Origin: an uncultured Bacilli bacterium
GTDB lineage: Bacteria > Bacillota_I > Bacilli_A > RF39 > UBA660
Direction of reading: 5' to 3'
Assembly (NCBI GenBank): GCA_947630575.1
Contig: CANRIB010000008.1
Coordinates: 1-45,334 of the forward strand
Length of the DNA stretch: 45,334 nucleotides
The position numbers were made by a program, and so were the translations under genes. The notes under the pieces were generated by a model. The model did not search any database, had not been told where the DNA came from, and was given only the letters and a program-made list of their open reading frames with translations. Positions 25,792 to 45,228 of this stretch are shown here, in pieces (position 1 is the stretch's first letter; every line of letters starts with the position of its first letter).

Positions 25792-25806
25792 TAGGAGTTG
25801 ATATTT

Positions 25807-27675
25807 GTGATAGTCTTTTCATGTTTAAAAAAAGAATTTATGAATTATGTAAAAGAAGGAATTATTAGTAATAAAGTTTATGATGCTTATAAAAAAATAT
25901 TTAATAAAAAAACCAAATACAACCAAATAAAAGCTTGGGCTAATAGTTTACCTCAAATGGCCGGTATTTTAGCCGATTTACCAGATAATACAGGTATAAC
26001 TATTGAATATGGTATACCTCTTACTAGTAAAAGTGTTGATATGGTTATCAGTGGTTATGACATCAACCATGAACCTACTATTATATTAGTTGAATTAAAA
26101 CAATGGTCCTACACTAAATTAATTAAATCTGTTGATGGTGTAGTTAGAACTAAAATTCATAACAAAGAAAAAAATGTTCTTCACCCCGCCTATCAAGTAT
26201 TATCCTATGCTGAATTATTAAAAGGCTATAACTTAACTATTGAAAAAGAACACATTAAGGTAATTCCCACAGTTTATCTCCATAATTATGATTTAAACAT
26301 TTCTGATGCTCTCTTTAATATTAAATATAAACCATATTATCAAAAAGTCCATATGTTTGGCCGCAATGAAGCCTTAGAACTTAAAGAATTAATCACAAGT
26401 TTTTTAAAATATGGGGATAACTTAAATGTTATTAACAAAGTTGATAATTCTGAAATTAAACCAACCAAAAAACTATTAAATGAAATTATCAATATGACTA
26501 AAGGAAACAAAGTATTTAATCTTTTAGATGAACAAAAAGTAATCATGGAAAATATTATTACTTTAGCCCATCAATCATTTATTGAAAATCAAAAACAAAC
26601 TATTATTGTTAAAGGTGGACCCGGGACTGGTAAATCAATATTAGCTATCAATGCCTTAGGAGAATTATTATCAGTTGGTTTAATGGGCGCATATGTTTCT
26701 AAAAATATGGCTCCTAGAAAAGTATATAAAAACATGATTGTTAATGGTTCAAATGAAATAAGTGTTAATGAATTATTTAAAAGTTCTGGTTATTTCTTTC
26801 GGGATAAAAAAGATAAATATGATTTTTTACTGGTTGATGAAGCCCATCGTCTTCAAGAAAAATCAGGCCTTCATAATAATTTAGGTGAAAATCAAATTAA
26901 AGAAATTATTAATGCTAGCAAACTAAGTGTCTTTTTTATTGACGAAAAACAAGCCATAACCATTAAAGATATCGGCACTATAAAAAATATTGAATATTAT
27001 GCTAAAATGTTAAAATCTAAAATAAATACTTATGAATTAACTAGTCAATTTCGTTGCAATGGAAGTGATAATTATTTGGGTTTTATTGAAGCCTTACTTT
27101 ATAATAAAAAAGAAAAACCTAAGTTTAATTTTGATTTTCAAGTAATGACAAGTCCCCAAGAATTAAAAGATTTAATAACGCGTAAAAATACTAACAATAA
27201 TGCCCGCATTGTTGCTGGTTTTTGTTGGCCGAGAAAAGTTTATACTGCCGATAATCAAAACTACCATGACATTAAGATTGGTGATTTTTCTATGAGTTGG
27301 AATCTAAAACATGGAGAACCTTTTGCCATCAGAGCAAATGCCATCAATGAAATAGGTTGTATTTATAATGTTCAAGGCTTAGAATTTGATTATATTGGAG
27401 TTATTATTGGTCCTGACTTAAAATATCAAAATGGTAAAATCATAACTGATTATAAAGCTCGTTCTAATACTGAAAAATCTTTATATGGCCTCCAAACTAA
27501 AATTAAAGAAAATAAAGATCAAAAAGCATATTATGAAAATATTGCCGATACTCTAATTAGAAATACTTATCGTGTATTACTAACAAGAGGTATTAAAGGC
27601 TGTTATGTTTATGCTTGTGATAAAAAATTACAACAACACTTAAAAAAGATGCAATCTCATCGCTTACATCTTTAA
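25807..27675 (+). CDS. DUF2075/Schlafen-type DNA/RNA helicase with N-terminal PD-(D/E)XK-like domain
   Basis: IEYGIPLTSKSVDMVISG...IILVELKQWS; Walker A VKGGPGTGKSILA; FLLVDEAHRL; C-terminal NTYRVLLTRGIKGCYVY; GTG start chosen. Confidence 0.8.
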   Translation: MIVFSCLKKEFMNYVKEGIISNKVYDAYKKIFNKKTKYNQIKAWANSLPQMAGILADLPDNTGITIEYGIPLTSKSVDMVISGYDINHEPTIILVELKQWSYTKLIKSVDGVVRTKIHNKEKNVLHPAYQVLSYAELLKGYNLTIEKEHIKVIPTVYLHNYDLNISDALFNIKYKPYYQKVHMFGRNEALELKELITSFLKYGDNLNVINKVDNSEIKPTKKLLNEIINMTKGNKVFNLLDEQKVIMENIITLAHQSFIENQKQTIIVKGGPGTGKSILAINALGELLSVGLMGAYVSKNMAPRKVYKNMIVNGSNEISVNELFKSSGYFFRDKKDKYDFLLVDEAHRLQEKSGLHNNLGENQIKEIINASKLSVFFIDEKQAITIKDIGTIKNIEYYAKMLKSKINTYELTSQFRCNGSDNYLGFIEALLYNKKEKPKFNFDFQVMTSPQELKDLITRKNTNNNARIVAGFCWPRKVYTADNQNYHDIKIGDFSMSWNLKHGEPFAIRANAINEIGCIYNVQGLEFDYIGVIIGPDLKYQNGKIITDYKARSNTEKSLYGLQTKIKENKDQKAYYENIADTLIRNTYRVLLTRGIKGCYVYACDKKLQQHLKKMQSHRLHL

Positions 27676-32549: not shown

Positions 32550-32580
32550 AAACATTAGACCTCAAAATCTAATGTTTTTA
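32550..32580. terminator. Bidirectional terminator between convergent genes
   Basis: aaacattaga-cctcaaaa-tctaatgttttt. Confidence 0.7.
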
Positions 32581-33942
32581 ATCTTTTAAATAATCTTTAA
32601 TCGTAAAAGTTTTCGGACTAATCTCATCTAATTTATTCCATGAAATAGGTATAGATAAAGTAGGTTTATCTTTAAGCCTTAAAGAGTAAGGCGCAACACT
32701 AGTCGCACTTTTAGTATTACGAACCCAATCAATAAAAATCTTTCCTTCTCTTTCTTTCATTCGCATATTTGCCGTATATTTATCTGGATATCTTACTTCC
32801 ATCACTTCTGCAATATTTTTGGCGATACTTCTAAACTTCTTCCATGTAATTTTTTGAGTTATAGGAACAATGATATGGTAACCCTTTCCCCCACTAGTTT
32901 TAATGCTAGCCTTCAAATCAAATTCGTCTAATGTTTTCTTTAAATCTTTAACTCCATCTTGCACTTTTTTAAGACTTAAATTTTCATCAGGATCTAAATC
33001 AAAGACCATCATATCAGGATGATTAATATCCATTATTTTAGAACCCCAAATATGAAATTCAAAACTATTCATTTGTACTTCATATATTAATCCTTGTTCA
33101 TCTTTAATATAATAATAATTTTCTTTTTTCCCTGATTCATTAGGAATATTCACTTTTCCTAAATAAGGATTTTCTTCTAAATGTTTCTTAAAAAACTTTT
33201 CTCCTCCATAACCATCAGGCATCCTAATGGTACTAATAAGCCTATTTTTAATAAGCGGTAACATCTTTTTAGCGACTTTATGATAATACATCGCAATATC
33301 AAGCTTAGTAACTTTAGGATTTTTAAAAATAACTTTATCGGGATTAGTAATTTTAATTCCTGTGACGATTCCCTCTTTTATTGAAGTTCTAGGTTTAGTT
33401 TTCTTTTTATTTAAAGTTATTTCTTCCATCGTTCTTCCTGTTTTAATACTCGTATTATAGTTGTTTATATTATCACTATTGACGTATTTATCTTCCTCTT
33501 TAATTAATAACCAATTATCTTCTTTAAATCTAACTAAAGACCATTTACCTTTGATTCTCTCTCCTTTAATATCAAATTTAAGAACACCCTTTTTTAAGCC
33601 TTGATTAAAATCATTTAAAGCATCATAATATCCCTTATCAAAAAGCATGACTTTTCCTCCTCCATACTCTCCTTTAGGAATAGTACCTTCAAAATTGCGA
33701 TATGATAAAGGATGATCTTCCACCTTCACTGCCAGTCTTTTATCTTTAGGATTAAATGATGGCCCCTTAGGTACTGCAAAACTTAACATGATGCCTTTCC
33801 ATTCTAATCTTAAATCATAATGATCTTTTCTTGCTAAATGATGTTGCAAAGAATATCTTAATCTATTACTAGACTTTTCTTTTTTCCCAACTGGTTCTTT
33901 TGTTTTATTAAAATCCCTTTTCTTATTATATTTATCTAGCAT
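32578..33942 (-). CDS. ligD: LigD-like NHEJ protein: 3'-phosphoesterase (PE) plus polymerase (POL) domains, no ligase domain
   Basis: PE: LQHHLARKDHYDLRLEWKGIMLSFAVPKGPS; POL: ITNPDKVIF, MMVFDLDPDENL, KTSGGKGYHIIVP. Confidence 0.88.
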   Translation of the reverse strand: MLDKYNKKRDFNKTKEPVGKKEKSSNRLRYSLQHHLARKDHYDLRLEWKGIMLSFAVPKGPSFNPKDKRLAVKVEDHPLSYRNFEGTIPKGEYGGGKVMLFDKGYYDALNDFNQGLKKGVLKFDIKGERIKGKWSLVRFKEDNWLLIKEEDKYVNSDNINNYNTSIKTGRTMEEITLNKKKTKPRTSIKEGIVTGIKITNPDKVIFKNPKVTKLDIAMYYHKVAKKMLPLIKNRLISTIRMPDGYGGEKFFKKHLEENPYLGKVNIPNESGKKENYYYIKDEQGLIYEVQMNSFEFHIWGSKIMDINHPDMMVFDLDPDENLSLKKVQDGVKDLKKTLDEFDLKASIKTSGGKGYHIIVPITQKITWKKFRSIAKNIAEVMEVRYPDKYTANMRMKEREGKIFIDWVRNTKSATSVAPYSLRLKDKPTLSIPISWNKLDEISPKTFTIKDYLKD

Positions 33943-33944
33943 AT

Positions 33945-33978
33945 AAAAACACCTCTAATCTTATTTTGAGGTATTTTT
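33945..33978 (-). terminator. Terminator-like hairpin at the end of the three-gene operon, containing the ligD Shine-Dalgarno
   Basis: Minus strand: AAAAATACCTC-aaaataagatta-GAGGTGTTTTT, then at-ATG of ligD. Confidence 0.6.
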
Positions 33979-33988
33979 AATTAATTAT

Positions 33989-35053
33989 TTATAAATTAGA
34001 TGCTGTTTTTCTTTTTCTTAAATCCATGATATAAACATTTAAATATGAAACATATTCTTTGGTATATATATTATTTCTAATATATTTTTTAATTAAGTTA
34101 TATTCATAATCTGTAAAACATAAAAACAAATAAAAAGCTGAAGAATAATTATGACTTTCATTAATTAAAACGTCTTTAAATCCCTTTTTAATATATTTTG
34201 CTTTAACATCATACAATTTTAATAATACTTTACTCTTATCATCTCTTCTTTTATTAAATTCAAAATAAACTGAATTATCTGTACAATTTGAAACCCAAGT
34301 AATTTCTACTTCCATATTATAAAAATGTGTAGCCAAAATATTATCAATTAAATATCTAATCTCTTCTTTATTAATTCTTTGTTCTTTATTCCAAAATAAT
34401 TTATTTAAACTCCCATATTGTACTTTTTTCCTCAAAATATTTACGACTTCTAAAATTTCCCTATCTAAAGTGATATGTTTAGTCGGATATTTATTTTGAA
34501 TATCCATTGGTAGCAAATCAAAAAAGTAATCAATATCAATTCTTAATCTGTCTTCTAGCTCAGTTATTCCCACTTCTCTCATATTTTGTAGTTCGTCTAA
34601 AAAAGTAAAATCTAAATCTTCAAAAAGAATATCATAATACGCATTTATATCATAAAATTCTTCTTTAATAAAATCTTTATAAAACTCTTGCATTTCATTT
34701 TCATATTCTATATCGACTATCTTATCAATTTTAGCCTGTAATTTCTTATTAAAGAATTCTTCAATAAACTCTTCTTTATCCATAAATTCAAATTCTTCTA
34801 ACCAAGCCAAAAAATAATATAAACCAATATTATGTATTTCTTCTAGCCCATAAAATTTATTATCTTTACTCCATTTATATAAATCTAAAAAAGCATTTTT
34901 ACATCTATCATATTGCTCATAATATAAATGCTCTGGGAAAAAAATTTTCAGTAATTTCTCGTTTAATATATCATTTATAAAAATAGTTTTACTTAAAAAA
35001 GTATTTATTATTTGATTATAAATCTTATAATTTTTAGTATTAAAAGCAATCAT
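33989..35053 (-). CDS. Putative inactive paralogue of the neighbouring PD-(D/E)XK-like protein (operon gene C)
   Basis: Alignable by eye with gene B at N-terminus (MIAFNTKNYKIYNQIIN vs MILFDTKNDNIYNKLIN) and C-terminus; catalytic positions substituted. Confidence 0.6.
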   Translation of the reverse strand: MIAFNTKNYKIYNQIINTFLSKTIFINDILNEKLLKIFFPEHLYYEQYDRCKNAFLDLYKWSKDNKFYGLEEIHNIGLYYFLAWLEEFEFMDKEEFIEEFFNKKLQAKIDKIVDIEYENEMQEFYKDFIKEEFYDINAYYDILFEDLDFTFLDELQNMREVGITELEDRLRIDIDYFFDLLPMDIQNKYPTKHITLDREILEVVNILRKKVQYGSLNKLFWNKEQRINKEEIRYLIDNILATHFYNMEVEITWVSNCTDNSVYFEFNKRRDDKSKVLLKLYDVKAKYIKKGFKDVLINESHNYSSAFYLFLCFTDYEYNLIKKYIRNNIYTKEYVSYLNVYIMDLRKRKTASNL

Positions 35054-36888
35054 TAAAATTCCTCCAATTTCTTTCCTAAATCCTCAAAAAATATTTTTAA
35101 TTTTTCATACATTTGAATATTTATTTTTCTAAAATAATTATATTGGTTTAAATTTGCATAATAAAGGATATACATTGTAAATGAATCTGCAAAAACAACC
35201 TTAAAATCTGGATTATCAACAGTTAATTTATAATTAGTCATTTTAAGAAAGGTTTTAAAATAATCCGGATCTTTACCATCTATATAAAAGTATAAAGCAG
35301 ACCCTAATAAATAAAGAAACATATAAATACCATTAATTTCTTTATTTAAATAACTTTTAATATCACTAAAATAAGTACATAAGAAAATCATTTCTTTACT
35401 ATCATTTACTGGAATACAAGAAGAATTAAACCCTTTATCAACATAATCTAACAAATATATTTTAAATTTTTTCTTCATAAAAAAGTCATAATATAAAGGA
35501 AATTTATCTTGAAGAATTTTAAAATCAGCTTTAATATCTTTTTTATTTATTCTTGTCGTTTCATTTTTCTCTGTAAAATTTCCCAAAAAGGATTCTCCAA
35601 ACTTTAAGCTTTTAACAAAATTTTTAGTATTATATCTTCCATTTAAAAAACTTAATAACAGCCTTTTAAATGCTTCATTTCCTTCCCAAATTTTTATATG
35701 TTCCAAAGAAAAAATATCTTCCGCCCTAACATCCAAAAAAAATACCAAATCATTAAATTTCTCTACAAATTCTTTTTTAAGTGTTTTATCTTCAATCATA
35801 TTATAAAATAATATTATATTATGTAAATATTGAAGGGCATCCTTAAGACTATTTATATCTTTTAATTTATTTATATAATTAAAATATTTATCAATATCTT
35901 TACTTATTTCTTTATTAATATTTGTATTATTATAATTTAAAAATTTTTTATTCTTAATTCTTGCATCTAATACTTTAACTTTAATATCATATTCTTCACT
36001 TTTATTAAATTCTTTTATCAATTTATTAACTTTCTCAATTTCTTTATCATTAAAACATATAATCACATAATAACCAATTTTACAATTCCAAGAATCCATA
36101 TATGCTCTAATTTGCTTTTCATAACCATTTTTTAAATTACTACTTTTAGCTTTTTTAATTTCTATTAAAACTTTTTCTTTTATATTTTTATAAAATTTAA
36201 AGTCAATTCTGCCACTTCCAATTAAAGATTCTCTAGTAATATCCACATCTTCATTACTAAAATAAATCTCAAATATATTTTCTAAAACTAATTGAATTCT
36301 CTCTTCGTTTATTGCCTCATCATTAACCCAAAACATAAAAGCTAAATTTCTTTCTTTCATTTCTTCATCTATAAAATCTAATAATTTATTTACTTCATAT
36401 ATTAAATTAATATTTTCTATTTGATAATCTTTAATTATTTCTTGAGGCAAAATATCTTCATATTTTTTAATTAAATCTTGTTTATCTTTTAAAAAGCTTT
36501 TTAATTTCCCTTGCTCATAATATTCTTCAAAACAAGATATAATTTTATCACTTAAAACAATATCAATCCAATTAAATTCCCAAATTTCTTCCTCAGTTAT
36601 TTCTTTTTTCATTCCTTTAGTAATACGCATTTTTTTGGCTATCTTTTCTAAAAAATTATATAACATTAATTGATGAAAAACATCTAATCGGTGATTATAA
36701 GTATCATTAGTCCATCTAATTAATTCCATCAATGCTTCTTCACATTTATAAAAATTTTTTCTATAAATATATTTTGGCATGATTAATTCAATTAAATCGC
36801 CCTTTTCATTACTCCTAATTTTTTTATTTAAAAGAATATTAATCAATTTATTATAAATATTATCATTTTTTGTATCAAATAAAATCAT
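35053..36888 (-). CDS. PD-(D/E)XK nuclease-like protein with about 270-aa C-terminal extension (operon gene B)
   Basis: SGRIDFKFYKNIKEKVLIEIKKAKS (D-x(n)-ExK pattern); start MILFDTKND after gggag. Confidence 0.6.
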   Translation of the reverse strand: MILFDTKNDNIYNKLINILLNKKIRSNEKGDLIELIMPKYIYRKNFYKCEEALMELIRWTNDTYNHRLDVFHQLMLYNFLEKIAKKMRITKGMKKEITEEEIWEFNWIDIVLSDKIISCFEEYYEQGKLKSFLKDKQDLIKKYEDILPQEIIKDYQIENINLIYEVNKLLDFIDEEMKERNLAFMFWVNDEAINEERIQLVLENIFEIYFSNEDVDITRESLIGSGRIDFKFYKNIKEKVLIEIKKAKSSNLKNGYEKQIRAYMDSWNCKIGYYVIICFNDKEIEKVNKLIKEFNKSEEYDIKVKVLDARIKNKKFLNYNNTNINKEISKDIDKYFNYINKLKDINSLKDALQYLHNIILFYNMIEDKTLKKEFVEKFNDLVFFLDVRAEDIFSLEHIKIWEGNEAFKRLLLSFLNGRYNTKNFVKSLKFGESFLGNFTEKNETTRINKKDIKADFKILQDKFPLYYDFFMKKKFKIYLLDYVDKGFNSSCIPVNDSKEMIFLCTYFSDIKSYLNKEINGIYMFLYLLGSALYFYIDGKDPDYFKTFLKMTNYKLTVDNPDFKVVFADSFTMYILYYANLNQYNYFRKINIQMYEKLKIFFEDLGKKLEEF

Positions 36889-36889
36889 T

Positions 36890-39800
36890 TTAACTCCCAA
36901 CTTTTTCTTTCTCTATCTCATTTTTTATAGCCATTTTATAATCTTTAAAACTATCAAAAGAACAAGTTTTACATATTTCACTTAACTTAAGCATATCTTT
37001 ATAAAAGCTAAGTAAAACATCCGTTAATTTATATTTTTTGAGCCATTTATAAAATGTATCTTCTAAAATTATTTTATCTAAATCAATTCTATAATAGTTA
37101 TTTTTAAATTTAAATTTAATATTATCTCTAAATAACTCTTTAAACTCTAAAAAAGCCTCATCTGTAATATAATCACATAAATCTAAATTACCCAAAATCA
37201 AACGAAGAATATTCCATAACTCATAATGAATCAAAGAGCACTCATAATTTTTTAAATCACCATAATCTAAGCTATCTAAATAAATTATAATGTGAAAATA
37301 ATCTAACATCGATAAAATAATACTATTTTCACTTTCGGTCTTAATACTCTCAATAAATTCCTCTAAATAATTTTCTAAAAAATAAATTTTAAAATTTTCT
37401 TCATCTAATTCTATTAAACATCTACATAAATCTTCAAAATAATCCATAAAAGTATAAGTAATTGAATTTAAAGGACCTAAAGCAAATATTACTTCACTTA
37501 ATAACTCCCCTTTTTGTTTTTCCTCCATTAAATGTATTCCCAATGTAATTAAATAACTATGAATTAATGGATTAATAAAAGAATAATATTTACTATGCTT
37601 AACAAAAATATCAGAATTTAATAATTTTTTAACATTTTTATCTCTCATATTAAAATCAAATATTCTATTTTTAAAAGTATCCATAGTAAAAACACTTTGA
37701 TTTTTATAAAAAGTTTCCAAGGCAATTAAAACTAAATCCATAAAATATTTACCATCAATATCTTCATTTTCTAAAATAATTTTAATTAAAATATAACAAA
37801 AATCTGTCGCTTTATCTTGAAAAAAACCTACATTTTGATAATAATCTATTAATATATCTAAAGATTCTTTATTATATCTAAAAGCCTTTAAATAACTAGT
37901 ATTGTCACTTAAATAACGAGTCAATTTCTGTGCTTCATTTTCTTCTAATCTATCTTTAATAATTTGTTCTATCTCTCTATTTTTAAGACCCTCTTCAAGT
38001 TGAAAAAAGTTATAACAGTACTCTTTAATATCATTAATATCTTTCTTTAAATTATCCTCATAATCATCTATATCATCTTCTAAATAAAAACTATGTACTT
38101 CATCATAATTTAGCACCTTTTCATATTGCTCTTTCTCGATATTTAGATAATTTAAATCTGTATCTAATAAAATTAATAATTCTTCTAAAGAACTATAATC
38201 TTTTTGCTCTTTAAAATATTCTAAATCTTTGCTAACCAATGTTTTAAGTAGTAACTCAAAATCATCATTATTTATAAATTCCTTATATTCTTCTGGAAAT
38301 ATATTTTCAAAATTATTTATATAGTATAATTCTGATGCATACATACAATTATCATAATAAATCTGAATAATTTCTTTACCATCATAAATTTTAAATTTGC
38401 TAATTTTTTCTACTATATTTATTAACATACTAAGCCAATCTTTAAAAATATATTTTCTATCTTTTTTTCTTAAAGCTTCCAATACATCTTCAAATTTCAA
38501 ACATATAAAATTTTTTAATTTTAAACTTAAATTCTCAATCTCTAAAAGTTTACTTAACTTAAATAAAGTTTGCTCTTCCTCACTCATTTCCTCAAATGGT
38601 AAATCTTCCCCTAAATGACTTCTTACCATATTATAATCATCAAAATTATTAATAATATTATCTTCAATTGATTTTTTAGTAACTCCCAAATCTTCTAAAT
38701 TACTAACATGAATACTAAGCAAAAAAACAAATTGATTAAAATACATTAAAGCATCAGTAATAATAAATCCCCAAGATTCTAAAGTATACATATATTCATA
38801 AAGAAAATCCATAATCGAATAATTTAAAAAAGCAATTCTCACCCCTAATTTCTTATTATACTTAGTTTTCAAAAAAACATTTTCTAATTGTTCTAAGATA
38901 TTATTAATTTCATATTCTTCTAAGTTAATACCCTTTTCTTTAGCCAATTTAAAGACATTTAAATATAATTTTCTTAAATCTTTTAAAAGAATCTCCCCAT
39001 TAAAAAACAAAATCAAATATAATATAACTTGTGCCGCTTTTGATTGTTTTATATATATTTTCTCTAAAAAATTAAAAGGACAATCTAAATCTTCCAAAAG
39101 AGAATTATAATATTCAAAATCTTTAACTTCTAAATCAAAACCATTATTAAGATATGTTTCTATAACTCGAGGATTAAAATTTTTATGATATAGCACTTTA
39201 TCTATATTATCAATAATATATTTAATATAATAAAAATTTAAATTAGATGTATATAATAATTTTAATAAAATATCTACTCTAAATTTTAAACTATAATCTT
39301 TTAATTGTAAAATAACTTTTTGTTTTATTAAAATCTCTTCAACATCTATATTACTTATAAGCCCTTGCTCTAAAACATAATTTCTCGATGTTAAAACTAA
39401 AATTTTATTTTTACTTTTTTCTATCTTTTCAATAAATTCTTTTAATTTTTTTTCTTCTGTATAACTATAATTAGTTTCTTTAAATTTATGACCCCAAAAA
39501 TCATCAAAGAAAAATATTTGTTTTTTATTTGGATAATATACTTTATTCGCACTATCAACATTATGTATATAAATAAACTGATAATCCTTTTTTTGTACAA
39601 AATAAGCCATAATAGCTCTAGCTAAACTTGTTTTACCAATCCCTGGATTACCTGTGATTAAAAGATATCTATTTTTTTGTAAATTGTTAATAATACTCCC
39701 AAAATTATCTACTGGTACAAAATACTTCATCATATTTTTAATATTTTCATATTCTGCTCTAGATTCTTCATATATAGCATTATTTACTATATTATCTAAT

Positions 39801-40258
39801 TTATTTAAAAAAGTATTTCCACTATTAAACCATAAATTAGGGTAATTAAGTTCAACCTCAAAATATTTACTTGAACCCAATAAATTATTAAGATCACTTT
39901 GTCCTAGTATATCTTCCGTATTTTTAATATAGCCTTTAAAAAGTTGAAAAATTTGTTCTTTTTCGCCAATTCCTAAATCAACACTTGTAACAATAATATA
40001 TCGCATGGGCTTAAATTCTTCTACTTTAGGCAATTCATATTTTTTTAAACTATAAAGCAATTTTTTAAAATTATTTTCATATCTTTTTATTTGCACAATA
40101 ACTGAATTATTATAAATTGTTTTTCTTAAATCAATTCCTCCATCTTTTCCCGGCGAAAAACTTTCAAAAAAACATTTTTCTTTTATTTGCAGGATATCTC
40201 TAACTAAATACTGGAACTCATAAGGCTCTAATAATTGATGAAAATCATATTTTACCAT
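36890..40258 (-). CDS. Restriction-endonuclease (Mrr-like) - STAND NTPase - helical C-terminal protein, Avs/nSTAND3-like (operon gene A)
   Basis: GKDGGIDL...NNSVIVQIKRY; Walker A LLITGNPGIGKTSLARAI; Walker B KQIFFFDDFWG; start MVKYDFHQ after gaggtggg. Confidence 0.82.
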   Translation of the reverse strand: MVKYDFHQLLEPYEFQYLVRDILQIKEKCFFESFSPGKDGGIDLRKTIYNNSVIVQIKRYENNFKKLLYSLKKYELPKVEEFKPMRYIIVTSVDLGIGEKEQIFQLFKGYIKNTEDILGQSDLNNLLGSSKYFEVELNYPNLWFNSGNTFLNKLDNIVNNAIYEESRAEYENIKNMMKYFVPVDNFGSIINNLQKNRYLLITGNPGIGKTSLARAIMAYFVQKKDYQFIYIHNVDSANKVYYPNKKQIFFFDDFWGHKFKETNYSYTEEKKLKEFIEKIEKSKNKILVLTSRNYVLEQGLISNIDVEEILIKQKVILQLKDYSLKFRVDILLKLLYTSNLNFYYIKYIIDNIDKVLYHKNFNPRVIETYLNNGFDLEVKDFEYYNSLLEDLDCPFNFLEKIYIKQSKAAQVILYLILFFNGEILLKDLRKLYLNVFKLAKEKGINLEEYEINNILEQLENVFLKTKYNKKLGVRIAFLNYSIMDFLYEYMYTLESWGFIITDALMYFNQFVFLLSIHVSNLEDLGVTKKSIEDNIINNFDDYNMVRSHLGEDLPFEEMSEEEQTLFKLSKLLEIENLSLKLKNFICLKFEDVLEALRKKDRKYIFKDWLSMLINIVEKISKFKIYDGKEIIQIYYDNCMYASELYYINNFENIFPEEYKEFINNDDFELLLKTLVSKDLEYFKEQKDYSSLEELLILLDTDLNYLNIEKEQYEKVLNYDEVHSFYLEDDIDDYEDNLKKDINDIKEYCYNFFQLEEGLKNREIEQIIKDRLEENEAQKLTRYLSDNTSYLKAFRYNKESLDILIDYYQNVGFFQDKATDFCYILIKIILENEDIDGKYFMDLVLIALETFYKNQSVFTMDTFKNRIFDFNMRDKNVKKLLNSDIFVKHSKYYSFINPLIHSYLITLGIHLMEEKQKGELLSEVIFALGPLNSITYTFMDYFEDLCRCLIELDEENFKIYFLENYLEEFIESIKTESENSIILSMLDYFHIIIYLDSLDYGDLKNYECSLIHYELWNILRLILGNLDLCDYITDEAFLEFKELFRDNIKFKFKNNYYRIDLDKIILEDTFYKWLKKYKLTDVLLSFYKDMLKLSEICKTCSFDSFKDYKMAIKNEIEKEKVGS

Positions 40259-40312
40259 ACTACCCACCTCATTTTTGGCACTATTATAACAGATATTTAA
40301 ATTAAATAAAAT

Positions 40313-40338
40313 AAAAAAACTCATTTAACATGAGTTTA
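40313..40338 (-). terminator. Terminator downstream of tRNA-His
   Basis: Minus strand: AAACTCAT-gttaa-ATGAGTTT followed by TTTT. Confidence 0.65.
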
Positions 40339-40349
40339 AAATCAATATC

Positions 40350-40426
40350 TGGGGCGAAATAAGGGAGTCGAACCCTTGCATAATAGAGCCACAATCTACC
40401 GTGTTAACCACTTCACCAATTCCGCC
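40350..40426 (-). tRNA. tRNA-His (anticodon GTG), CCA encoded, G-1:C73 pair
   Basis: Minus strand GGCGGAATTGG...GATTGTGGC...AGGGTTCGACTCCCTTATTTCGCCCCA. Confidence 0.95.
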
Positions 40427-40766: not shown

Positions 40767-42209
40767 ATGAAAAATTATAGTATATGGAATGAATATAAAA
40801 GTAAAACAAAATGTAATACCCTAGAAAGTGATATTGAAACAGACATATTAATCGTTGGTGGAGGAATAACAGGCTTATCTATTCTAGAAGAATTAAAAGC
40901 CCAAAACTTAAACTGCATTTTAATTGAACGAAATGAATGTGGCCGTGGTGTAACTAGTAGAAGTACTGCTAAAATAACTTATTTACAAGAAAAAATATTA
41001 ATGAATATTAGAACTCTTGTAAGTGTTGAAGCTGCCGATAAATATTTAAAAAGTCAAATACTCGCCATTAATAAAATAAAAGAATTAATTACAAAGAATA
41101 ATATTGCTTGTGATTTTAAAGAAGTTGATTCGTATCTTTTTACTAACGATGAAAATAATATTTCAAAATTAGAAGAAGAATATAACTTTTTAATCAAAAA
41201 TAACATAGATGTTTCCAAAATAACTAAGCCACCCTTTAAAGAATCTTGTAAACTCGCTTTAAAAGTCCCTAACACTTATGTTTTTCATCCTCTAAAATAT
41301 CTTGATTTTTGGAAAAATAAATATCAAAAAAGCATGTATGAACATACCAAATTAGAAAGTATTAATAAAAAGAATAATTATTATGAATGTTATGCCAATA
41401 ATCATTTAATTAAAGCCAAATATTTAATTATCGCGACTCACTACCCTTATTTTTTAACTCCCTTTTGCTTACCAATAAAAAGCCATATCGAAACGTCTTA
41501 CATTGGTGCTTCCAAAACGACTAACTTCAAAAACATCAGTGCCATAAACATTGATAAACCAACTATATCATTAAGATACCATGAAGATAATCCAAATAAT
41601 TATTTAATATACTTAAAAAACAGTTATATATCAAGTAATATAACTAATATCAAAGATAATTTTAATAAATTAACAGATATAAAAAAATTTAACTATCTTT
41701 GGAGTAATAAAGATATTATAACTAATGATTATATGCCATATATAGGAAGTATCACCAAAGATAATACCTTTTTAATCGCCTGTGGTTATAACACTTGGGG
41801 TATGACTAATTCCATTCTTGCTAGTATCATTATCAAAGATATTATCTTAAAAAAAGATAATCCCTACATTTCGTTATTCTCACCAAAAAGAAACTTCAAT
41901 TTAAGTAAACTTATTAGATTTCCAATCGACATTAAAAGCAATATTAAAGCCATCATCAAAAGTACCAAAAATAATGTTAATAACTCTCAAGTTATCTACA
42001 CTAAAAGAAATAATCAAAATGTTGCAATCTATAAAGATGAAAAAAATAATGAACACATAGTTTTAAATAAATGTCCTCACTTAAAATGTGGTTTAGTCTT
42101 TAATGAAATAGAAAAAACATGGGATTGTTTATGTCATGGCTCTCGTTTTAATATCGATGGAAAATGTATCGAAGGACCAAGTAATTATGATATAACTTTT
42201 AAAGAATAA
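40767..42209 (+). CDS. FAD-dependent oxidoreductase (DAO family) with C-terminal Rieske [2Fe-2S] domain
   Basis: DILIVGGGITGLSIL; CPHLKCG...CLCHGSRF. Confidence 0.92.
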   Translation: MKNYSIWNEYKSKTKCNTLESDIETDILIVGGGITGLSILEELKAQNLNCILIERNECGRGVTSRSTAKITYLQEKILMNIRTLVSVEAADKYLKSQILAINKIKELITKNNIACDFKEVDSYLFTNDENNISKLEEEYNFLIKNNIDVSKITKPPFKESCKLALKVPNTYVFHPLKYLDFWKNKYQKSMYEHTKLESINKKNNYYECYANNHLIKAKYLIIATHYPYFLTPFCLPIKSHIETSYIGASKTTNFKNISAINIDKPTISLRYHEDNPNNYLIYLKNSYISSNITNIKDNFNKLTDIKKFNYLWSNKDIITNDYMPYIGSITKDNTFLIACGYNTWGMTNSILASIIIKDIILKKDNPYISLFSPKRNFNLSKLIRFPIDIKSNIKAIIKSTKNNVNNSQVIYTKRNNQNVAIYKDEKNNEHIVLNKCPHLKCGLVFNEIEKTWDCLCHGSRFNIDGKCIEGPSNYDITFKE

Positions 42210-44043: not shown

Positions 44044-45228
44044 TCAGGTAACTTCAAAAACAAAATCCATTTTAGTATCACATTTGGGACAATTATAAGG
44101 ATCTCTATTAAAGCTTTTTAAAATAGATAATCCATATTTAAGTAATGTTTTTCTAATATGTCTTTTTGTTTTATTAATTAACAATATCATTTTATCATGA
44201 ATTGGTTGTTTTTTTCTATAAAAACCATAATATCTTATAATTTTATATTGATAAGGAACAATATGTTGAATAAGAAGTAGAATAAACTTTTGAGCAGAGA
44301 TGGTAATTTCATGATAAGAATTATCATAATGGTCTATATAAGAAAAAGTAACAACTTTACCATCATAGTTAATAATTCTGTTTTCACTTATAGGAACACG
44401 ACCACAGTAACGAGTGACGTATTCAATACCATCTTTTAAAGATTTAAATTTTTTCTTTTCGGCATAAACATAAAAACCTTTTTTATATTTATTATAAAGT
44501 TTAGATTTTAAAGGTTCAAAATCTTTACCTAATTCTTTAGATAATAAGTCTAATAAAATTTTTTGGAAGCGAATAGATAAAGCATCAAAATTAAAATAAT
44601 CCCATTTTAAAACTAAATTATTTGATATTTTAATTTCAGCGAGTAAAATATGGATATGAGGATTCCATTTTAAATCACGACCGAAGGTATGTAAAAAAGC
44701 GAAGAAACCAGGGATAAAATTAAATTTAGATTTGTATTTAATTAATTTATTTTTCTTTTTAGAAAATTTAAAATTTTCATTTAAAATGGAATATAAAGTA
44801 TCTCTAACAGCTTTAAATAGAATATCAATTCTACTTGAAAAAGGGAAGAAAAAGAAATTACGAAGTTCTTTTGGGATAGTAAAAACAATTTGACGATGAT
44901 TACATTTGTAAGCAGTTTGTAAAATATTTTCAACCCGATTATTTTTATATTTATAACCACAAGAAGAACAAAGACGAGATTTACAAGTATGGCCAATTAA
45001 AATCATATCATGGCAATTAGGACATTCATAGACAGAGCAACCTAAATTTTTGTTGTAGCAATTAATAACTTTATGAACTTCTGTATTAGCATTAGGTCGA
45101 AATTTATCAATAATAACTTTATTATTAGAATAAAAAGAAGGCCAATGGTCTTCAAAGATAGAGGCAATAAGACCAGTTTTCTTAAAAGAGTTATATTTAG
45201 GGTTAAGAGAGCCATCAGATTTAAACAT
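44044..45228 (-). CDS. IS91-family (HUH/Y2) transposase
   Basis: N-terminal zinc domain YECPNCHD..HTCKSRLCSSCGYK; HTFGRDLKWNPHIHILL HUH motif; YVTRYCGRVPIS double-Tyr motif. Confidence 0.88.
   Translation of the reverse strand: MFKSDGSLNPKYNSFKKTGLIASIFEDHWPSFYSNNKVIIDKFRPNANTEVHKVINCYNKNLGCSVYECPNCHDMILIGHTCKSRLCSSCGYKYKNNRVENILQTAYKCNHRQIVFTIPKELRNFFFFPFSSRIDILFKAVRDTLYSILNENFKFSKKKNKLIKYKSKFNFIPGFFAFLHTFGRDLKWNPHIHILLAEIKISNNLVLKWDYFNFDALSIRFQKILLDLLSKELGKDFEPLKSKLYNKYKKGFYVYAEKKKFKSLKDGIEYVTRYCGRVPISENRIINYDGKVVTFSYIDHYDNSYHEITISAQKFILLLIQHIVPYQYKIIRYYGFYRKKQPIHDKMILLINKTKRHIRKTLLKYGLSILKSFNRDPYNCPKCDTKMDFVFEVT

Follow-up and report, generated by a model that had tools for sequence, protein, structure and literature searches.

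Two-gene defense systems that combine a nuclease with a partner include Hachiman (HamAB) and Gabija (GajAB), and the families with PDC names in PADLOC-DB are phage-defense candidates. Nucleases of the RecB/Cas4 type carry a signature which consists of D, E-x-K, and QxxxY in this order. Avs5 combines an nSTAND3 NTPase and helical repeats with a SIR2-like effector (PMC12931631), and Hachiman is described as a two-gene defense system of a nuclease and a partner (PMC12278908).

The locus analyzed here lies in a stretch of 45,334 nucleotides (the window) from an uncultured Bacilli bacterium and contains three genes of the minus strand, namely A, B, and C. In the reading which is preferred, with a probability of roughly 0.6, these genes are a composite and probably horizontally acquired antiphage operon, placed in a hotspot between tRNA-His and ligD and consisting of two separable modules. 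The undescribed part of the locus is the B-C pair, not A. The features of the region are the following:

32578 to 33942, minus strand: LigD-type NHEJ polymerase/phosphoesterase (PF21686, PF13298), downstream border of the slot
33989 to 35053, minus strand: gene C, 354 aa, paralog of B lacking the C-terminal region and the catalytic residues (pseudonuclease)
35053 to 36888, minus strand: gene B, 611 aa, N-terminal helical region, RecB/Cas4-like nuclease domain, and a C-terminal region of ~290 aa
36890 to 40258, minus strand: gene A, 1122 aa, Mrr-like PD-(D/E)XK domain, nSTAND3, and a long helical C-terminus; PDC-S73 family, enlarged
40350 to 40425, minus strand: tRNA-His(GTG), upstream border of the slot (ARAGORN)
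40767 to 42209, plus strand: FAD oxidoreductase with a Rieske domain, past the tRNA, a conserved host gene (Pfam)

Organization of the Locus and Its Slot

The three ORFs of the original prediction are all present, and their tight packing was read directly in the sequence. In detail, a single A separates the TAA stop of gene A from the ATG of gene B (TTAAAATG), and the TAA of B overlaps the ATG of C by one base (TTTTAATG). The observation of these three genes is far beyond chance. A longer start of A at 40324 would add 22 residues to the protein. The true initiation codon is the ATG at 40258. A GAGGTGGG ribosome site precedes this codon, which supplies the second methionine (residue 23 counted from 40324), and here the PDC-S73 profile begins. 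The terminator scan of the A-B-C region gave no passing candidate, and a short CCTC...GAGG hairpin lies 5′ of ligD, where it overlaps the ribosome site of this gene. The three genes are probably carried on one transcript, which does not necessarily make them parts of one pathway.

The insert is located exactly between tRNA-His (40350–40425) and the ligD polymerase gene (33942), with nothing else in the slot. Its genes have a GC content of 20–21%, compared with 27% for the window, and they rank within the bottom four by GC among the window's ORFs of 150 aa or longer. The tRNA-His gene is present at both the empty and the occupied sites of the congeners, and LigD-type polymerases are found in 25 of the 36 congeneric genomes; ligD is a host gene common in the genus and stands outside the cassette. 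Similarly, the FAD oxidoreductase holds the same position in five congeners (G001, G002, G013, G026, and G028).

The content of the slot varies among these species. The gap between tRNA-His and ligD is empty (~135–145 bp) in G001 and G013, it carries two C5 methyltransferases with AAA and McrBC/LlaJI-like genes in G028, a C5 methyltransferase in G026, and other cargo in G002. Genes which adjoin ligD or are found near it, not always in the same slot, include those of LlaJI type (G015), PDC-S53 (beside ligD in G023), a type ISP enzyme (G030), PDC-S73 (beside ligD in G019), and a gene that looks recombinase-like by eye (G011). The fact that the slot of sister species is either empty or filled with restriction-modification genes indicates a defense hotspot. 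A classical att repeat is absent, as no second copy of the 3′ end of tRNA-His turned up in the window.

Three further observations concern the surroundings of the locus. With the ligD flanks included, the hotspot with its species-dependent cargo comprises positions 33942–40350 of the window and the loci L062, L064, L067, L068, L072, L073, and L076. In G030, a protein of 660 aa (L073:9845–11827) adjoins ligD next to the type ISP enzyme and has no Pfam or PADLOC match. Within the window, genes for IS110-type and IS91-like transposases lie at the ends (1382–2716 and 44044–45228), and a Schlafen group 3 helicase-domain protein (PF09848, E=5e-91) is encoded at 25798–27675, with neighbors conserved in congeners.

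Gene A and the PDC-S73 Family

The reading of A as an Mrr-like nuclease followed by a P-loop NTPase and a helical C-terminus was confirmed. The NTPase is of the nSTAND3 type (PF20720, E=1.4e-40) and the nuclease matches Mrr_cat at the borderline (E=5e-4, just under the gathering cut-off of 21 bits), both in Pfam. In PADLOC, A matches PDC-S73 with E=6.8e-97 over profile positions 1–722 of 752, a match which covers the REase, the nSTAND3, and the helices. Judged by these profiles, A is a member of PDC-S73, an already catalogued single-gene defense candidate, for which no paper using the name was found in a literature search. The REase, nSTAND3, and helical regions are common to A and PDC-S73, but A is ~350 aa longer at its C-terminus, a property shared by the proteins of G530 and G550, and it is located here directly upstream of B-C.

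The scan with PDC-S73 gave 209 matching genomes, most of which matched in the P-loop region only and were set aside. Homologs of ~770–780 aa stand alone in G227, G175, G067, G019, G485, and G041, and long homologs (1084–1116 aa) were found in G550 and G530. The closest full-length relative is the G530 protein of 1116 aa, with 33% identity from residue 17 to 1133, and its gene has housekeeping neighbors without B or C. Because this match extends along nearly the full length, the long C-terminus of A is not peculiar to the A-B-C operon. No partner gene common to the homologs was found beside them in these eight genomes, and the C-terminus of A has no detectable relation to B or C. Searches with A against PDB sequences gave nothing, and the viral-contig scan gave no relatives.

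By analogy with STAND and Avs5-type proteins, the helical C-terminus of A would probably sense a phage component, the NTPase would then oligomerize, and the Mrr-like domain would cut DNA and in this way stop the infection.

The B-C Gene Pair

B and C share 26% identity over ~348 aa (BLASTP, E=9e-26), and C possesses the N-terminal and nuclease-like regions known from B. The catalytic residues of B are D229, E243-x-K245, and Q259xxxY263, in this order. According to the residue table, D229, ExK, and QxxxY occur in each of the four B proteins as well as in a single-gene relative from an Atopobium MAG (L011), whereas D229, K245, Q259, and Y263 are gone in all four C proteins, with differing replacements, and E243 is also gone in two of them. 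In the alignment, a tryptophan is found in every C at the position of Arg219 of B. Both earlier claims, that B carries a second nuclease-like motif and that C is its shorter and degenerate paralog, are upheld by the conserved RecB/Cas4-like residues of the four B proteins, the BLASTP match, and the active-site losses of C. The long retention of the dead frame suggests that C does something.

The order of D, E-x-K, and QxxxY in B is that of RecB/Cas4-type PD-(D/E)XK nucleases, and B gives a faint match to the PHROG of a Cas4-domain exonuclease (E=0.019), but the N- and C-terminal regions differ and no significant profile or structure match to this type was obtained. The AlphaFold models of B and C are of moderate quality (pLDDT 75–80). 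The core of the B model has the order strand-strand-strand-helix-strand-helix-strand; Foldseek gave no significant match for either model, those of B to EndoMS and RPB5 having E>0.05. Searches of PDB sequences with the B/C profile and the nuclease-domain profile also gave nothing significant. Neither protein matches a Pfam or NCBIfam model, nor is there a convincing PADLOC family match, the only one being that of B to GajB, which is weak and misplaced (E=0.0025, residues 143–315, that is, the nuclease region). Since there is no model for the pair in these three collections, tools of defense annotation would miss it.

The C-terminal region of B (35053–35940 of the window, residues ~316–611) is absent from C and from L011 and has no family match. 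A degenerate zincin (helix-strands-helix, with FADSF in place of the glutamate helix) was considered for this region and found no support from any tool.

More distant relatives share the nuclease domain. B matches phrog_30194 with E=7e-14, and PDC-M36A-like proteins of ~460–490 aa are encoded on plasmids of Sinorhizobium, Nitrosospira, Rhodobacter, and Paenarthrobacter. Ten nuclease-domain relatives have D216, E220, D229, E243, K245, Q259, Y263, and D308 in common (B numbering). In phrog_30194, the plasmid proteins, and the proteins of G729 and G280, the domain is homologous to that of B but is C-terminal, and in the plasmid proteins it follows a PDC-M36A-like N-terminal region instead. PDC-M36 is matched by these distant relatives alone, and not by B, C, L011, or the B of L010. 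No dead paralog was recognized beside the plasmid proteins in the four annotated plasmid records. In G280, a gene judged by eye to encode an AlbA_2, NB-ARC-type STAND, and TPR-like protein (L034:3286–7490) directly precedes a B-type nuclease of 481 aa.

Homologs of B/C themselves are few. A genome-collection scan and profile searches gave four lineages beyond the window (L007/L008, L009, L010, and L011), thus five in total and nearly all from MAGs, where L007/L008 are the same contig from the genus of the window and are counted once. B/C were found in two of the 100 relatives, which are the two genomes of the genus, the window's own included, and in three of the 386 genomes of the family, one of which (G729) has a distant single-gene relative only. 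B is directly followed by C in L007/L008, L009, and L010, with an overlap of 14 bases or a gap of 21, so the pair is adjacent, with B first, in all four B-C loci when the window is included. The C of L010 (10883–11944) has one in-frame TAA at codon 220 next to an intact B, and in L009 the N-terminus of B lies in another frame (1148–1486); both may represent decay or MAG/assembly errors. Viral-contig scans with B and L011 gave no relatives, L011 had no match among phage records, and literature searches found no description of the pair.

Phylogenetically, all C proteins group together in a clade (99/95) to which L011 is sister (96/95). As L011 is C-sized and its active site is intact, this grouping indicates that C probably lost its active site after the duplication. 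The simplest history that the sequences suggest is a duplication, with the C-terminal region gained in B and the active site lost in C. Most likely, C is the partner of B in a heteromer and regulates or positions it; the pair would then be a nuclease with one active site, in which C is a scaffold or a brake. A special case of this heteromer, not distinguishable from it by sequence, is that C inhibits B like an immunity protein or antitoxin, and a toxic nuclease is restrained until infection removes C. C has the N-terminal and nuclease-like regions of B, always adjoins it and is always dead, and a lone catalytic protein exists in L011; this inhibition is nevertheless quite unlikely, because antitoxin genes more often precede toxin genes and here B is ahead of C, because no partner gene was found for the active-looking L011, and because the stop in L010 breaks C and leaves B intact.

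The vicinity of ligD raises the question of whether B-C is tied to NHEJ and not to defense, with the nuclease and its partner processing ends for Ku and LigD. The ligD polymerase gene adjoins the pair in two of the four loci, that is, in the window and in L010 (Ku-ligase-ligD-B-C). On the contrary, no NHEJ gene is found near L007 or L009, LigD-type polymerases are far more widespread in the genus than its two B-C genomes, the ligD flank also takes restriction-modification and other defense genes, and the Atopobium relative lies among defense genes, its neighbors being DUF1016 (PDC-S02), AbiD, and an ApeA-like HEPN gene. The hotspot explains the presence of ligD beside B-C in the window and L010 without any link to end joining, which is very improbable. 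The genomic context supports a defense role, which is likely for both modules.

Two Modules and Their Known Counterparts

The original prediction regarded A-B-C as one undescribed system, and this did not survive the comparison with other genomes. A is PDC-S73, its full-length relatives occur without B or C, and B-C occurs elsewhere without an adjacent A: none adjoins the pair in L007/L008, L009, or L010, and in these genomes the PDC-S73 search gave P-loop fragments at most (one of them, G022, is only 56% complete). This occurrence of B-C apart from A is what the original prediction itself had named as speaking against it. One obligate three-gene system, with A as the sensing and signaling component and the B-C nuclease as an additional effector, could draw on the spacing of 1 nt between A and B and the overlap of B and C, which suggest one transcript with coupled translation, as well as on a slot filled by these genes alone and on their equally low GC. 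It is unlikely, given that the other B-C loci have no adjacent A, that the relatives of A, the closest full-length one included, are without B-C, and that a single locus with the A-B-C arrangement was found in total.

The composite operon of two modules remains the preferred reading. A more far-reaching one, which taken as a whole is rather doubtful, would see B-C as an unrecognized defense system where a dead paralog, derived from an active stand-alone nuclease, is the obligate partner of a RecB/Cas4-like nuclease; a homomeric enzyme would have become a regulated heteromer, wired in the window behind a STAND sensor as second effector. As an active-looking nuclease with a dead sister, B-C is a clear-cut example, and the comparison with the active-looking single-gene form of Atopobium makes the role of a pseudonuclease in defense directly testable. 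The tRNA-His/ligD slot is in turn a defense hotspot that can be mined in poorly studied Bacilli of small genome size.

Compared with Hachiman and Gabija, B-C similarly consists of two genes that include a nuclease, but it has no helicase or ATPase partner. PADLOC found no match to HamA or HamB in A-B-C, and B has no helicase match in Pfam that would correspond to the UvrD-like helicase of GajB. A resembles Avs5 in that its nSTAND3 NTPase is flanked by an N-terminal effector and a helical C-terminus (PMC12931631). The effector is SIR2-like in Avs5 and an Mrr-like nuclease in A, which showed no SIR2 match in Pfam or PADLOC and no match to the Avs models of PADLOC. On the basis of its domains, A is not a member of Avs5, but it probably works like an Avs5-type protein in which a nuclease replaces SIR2.
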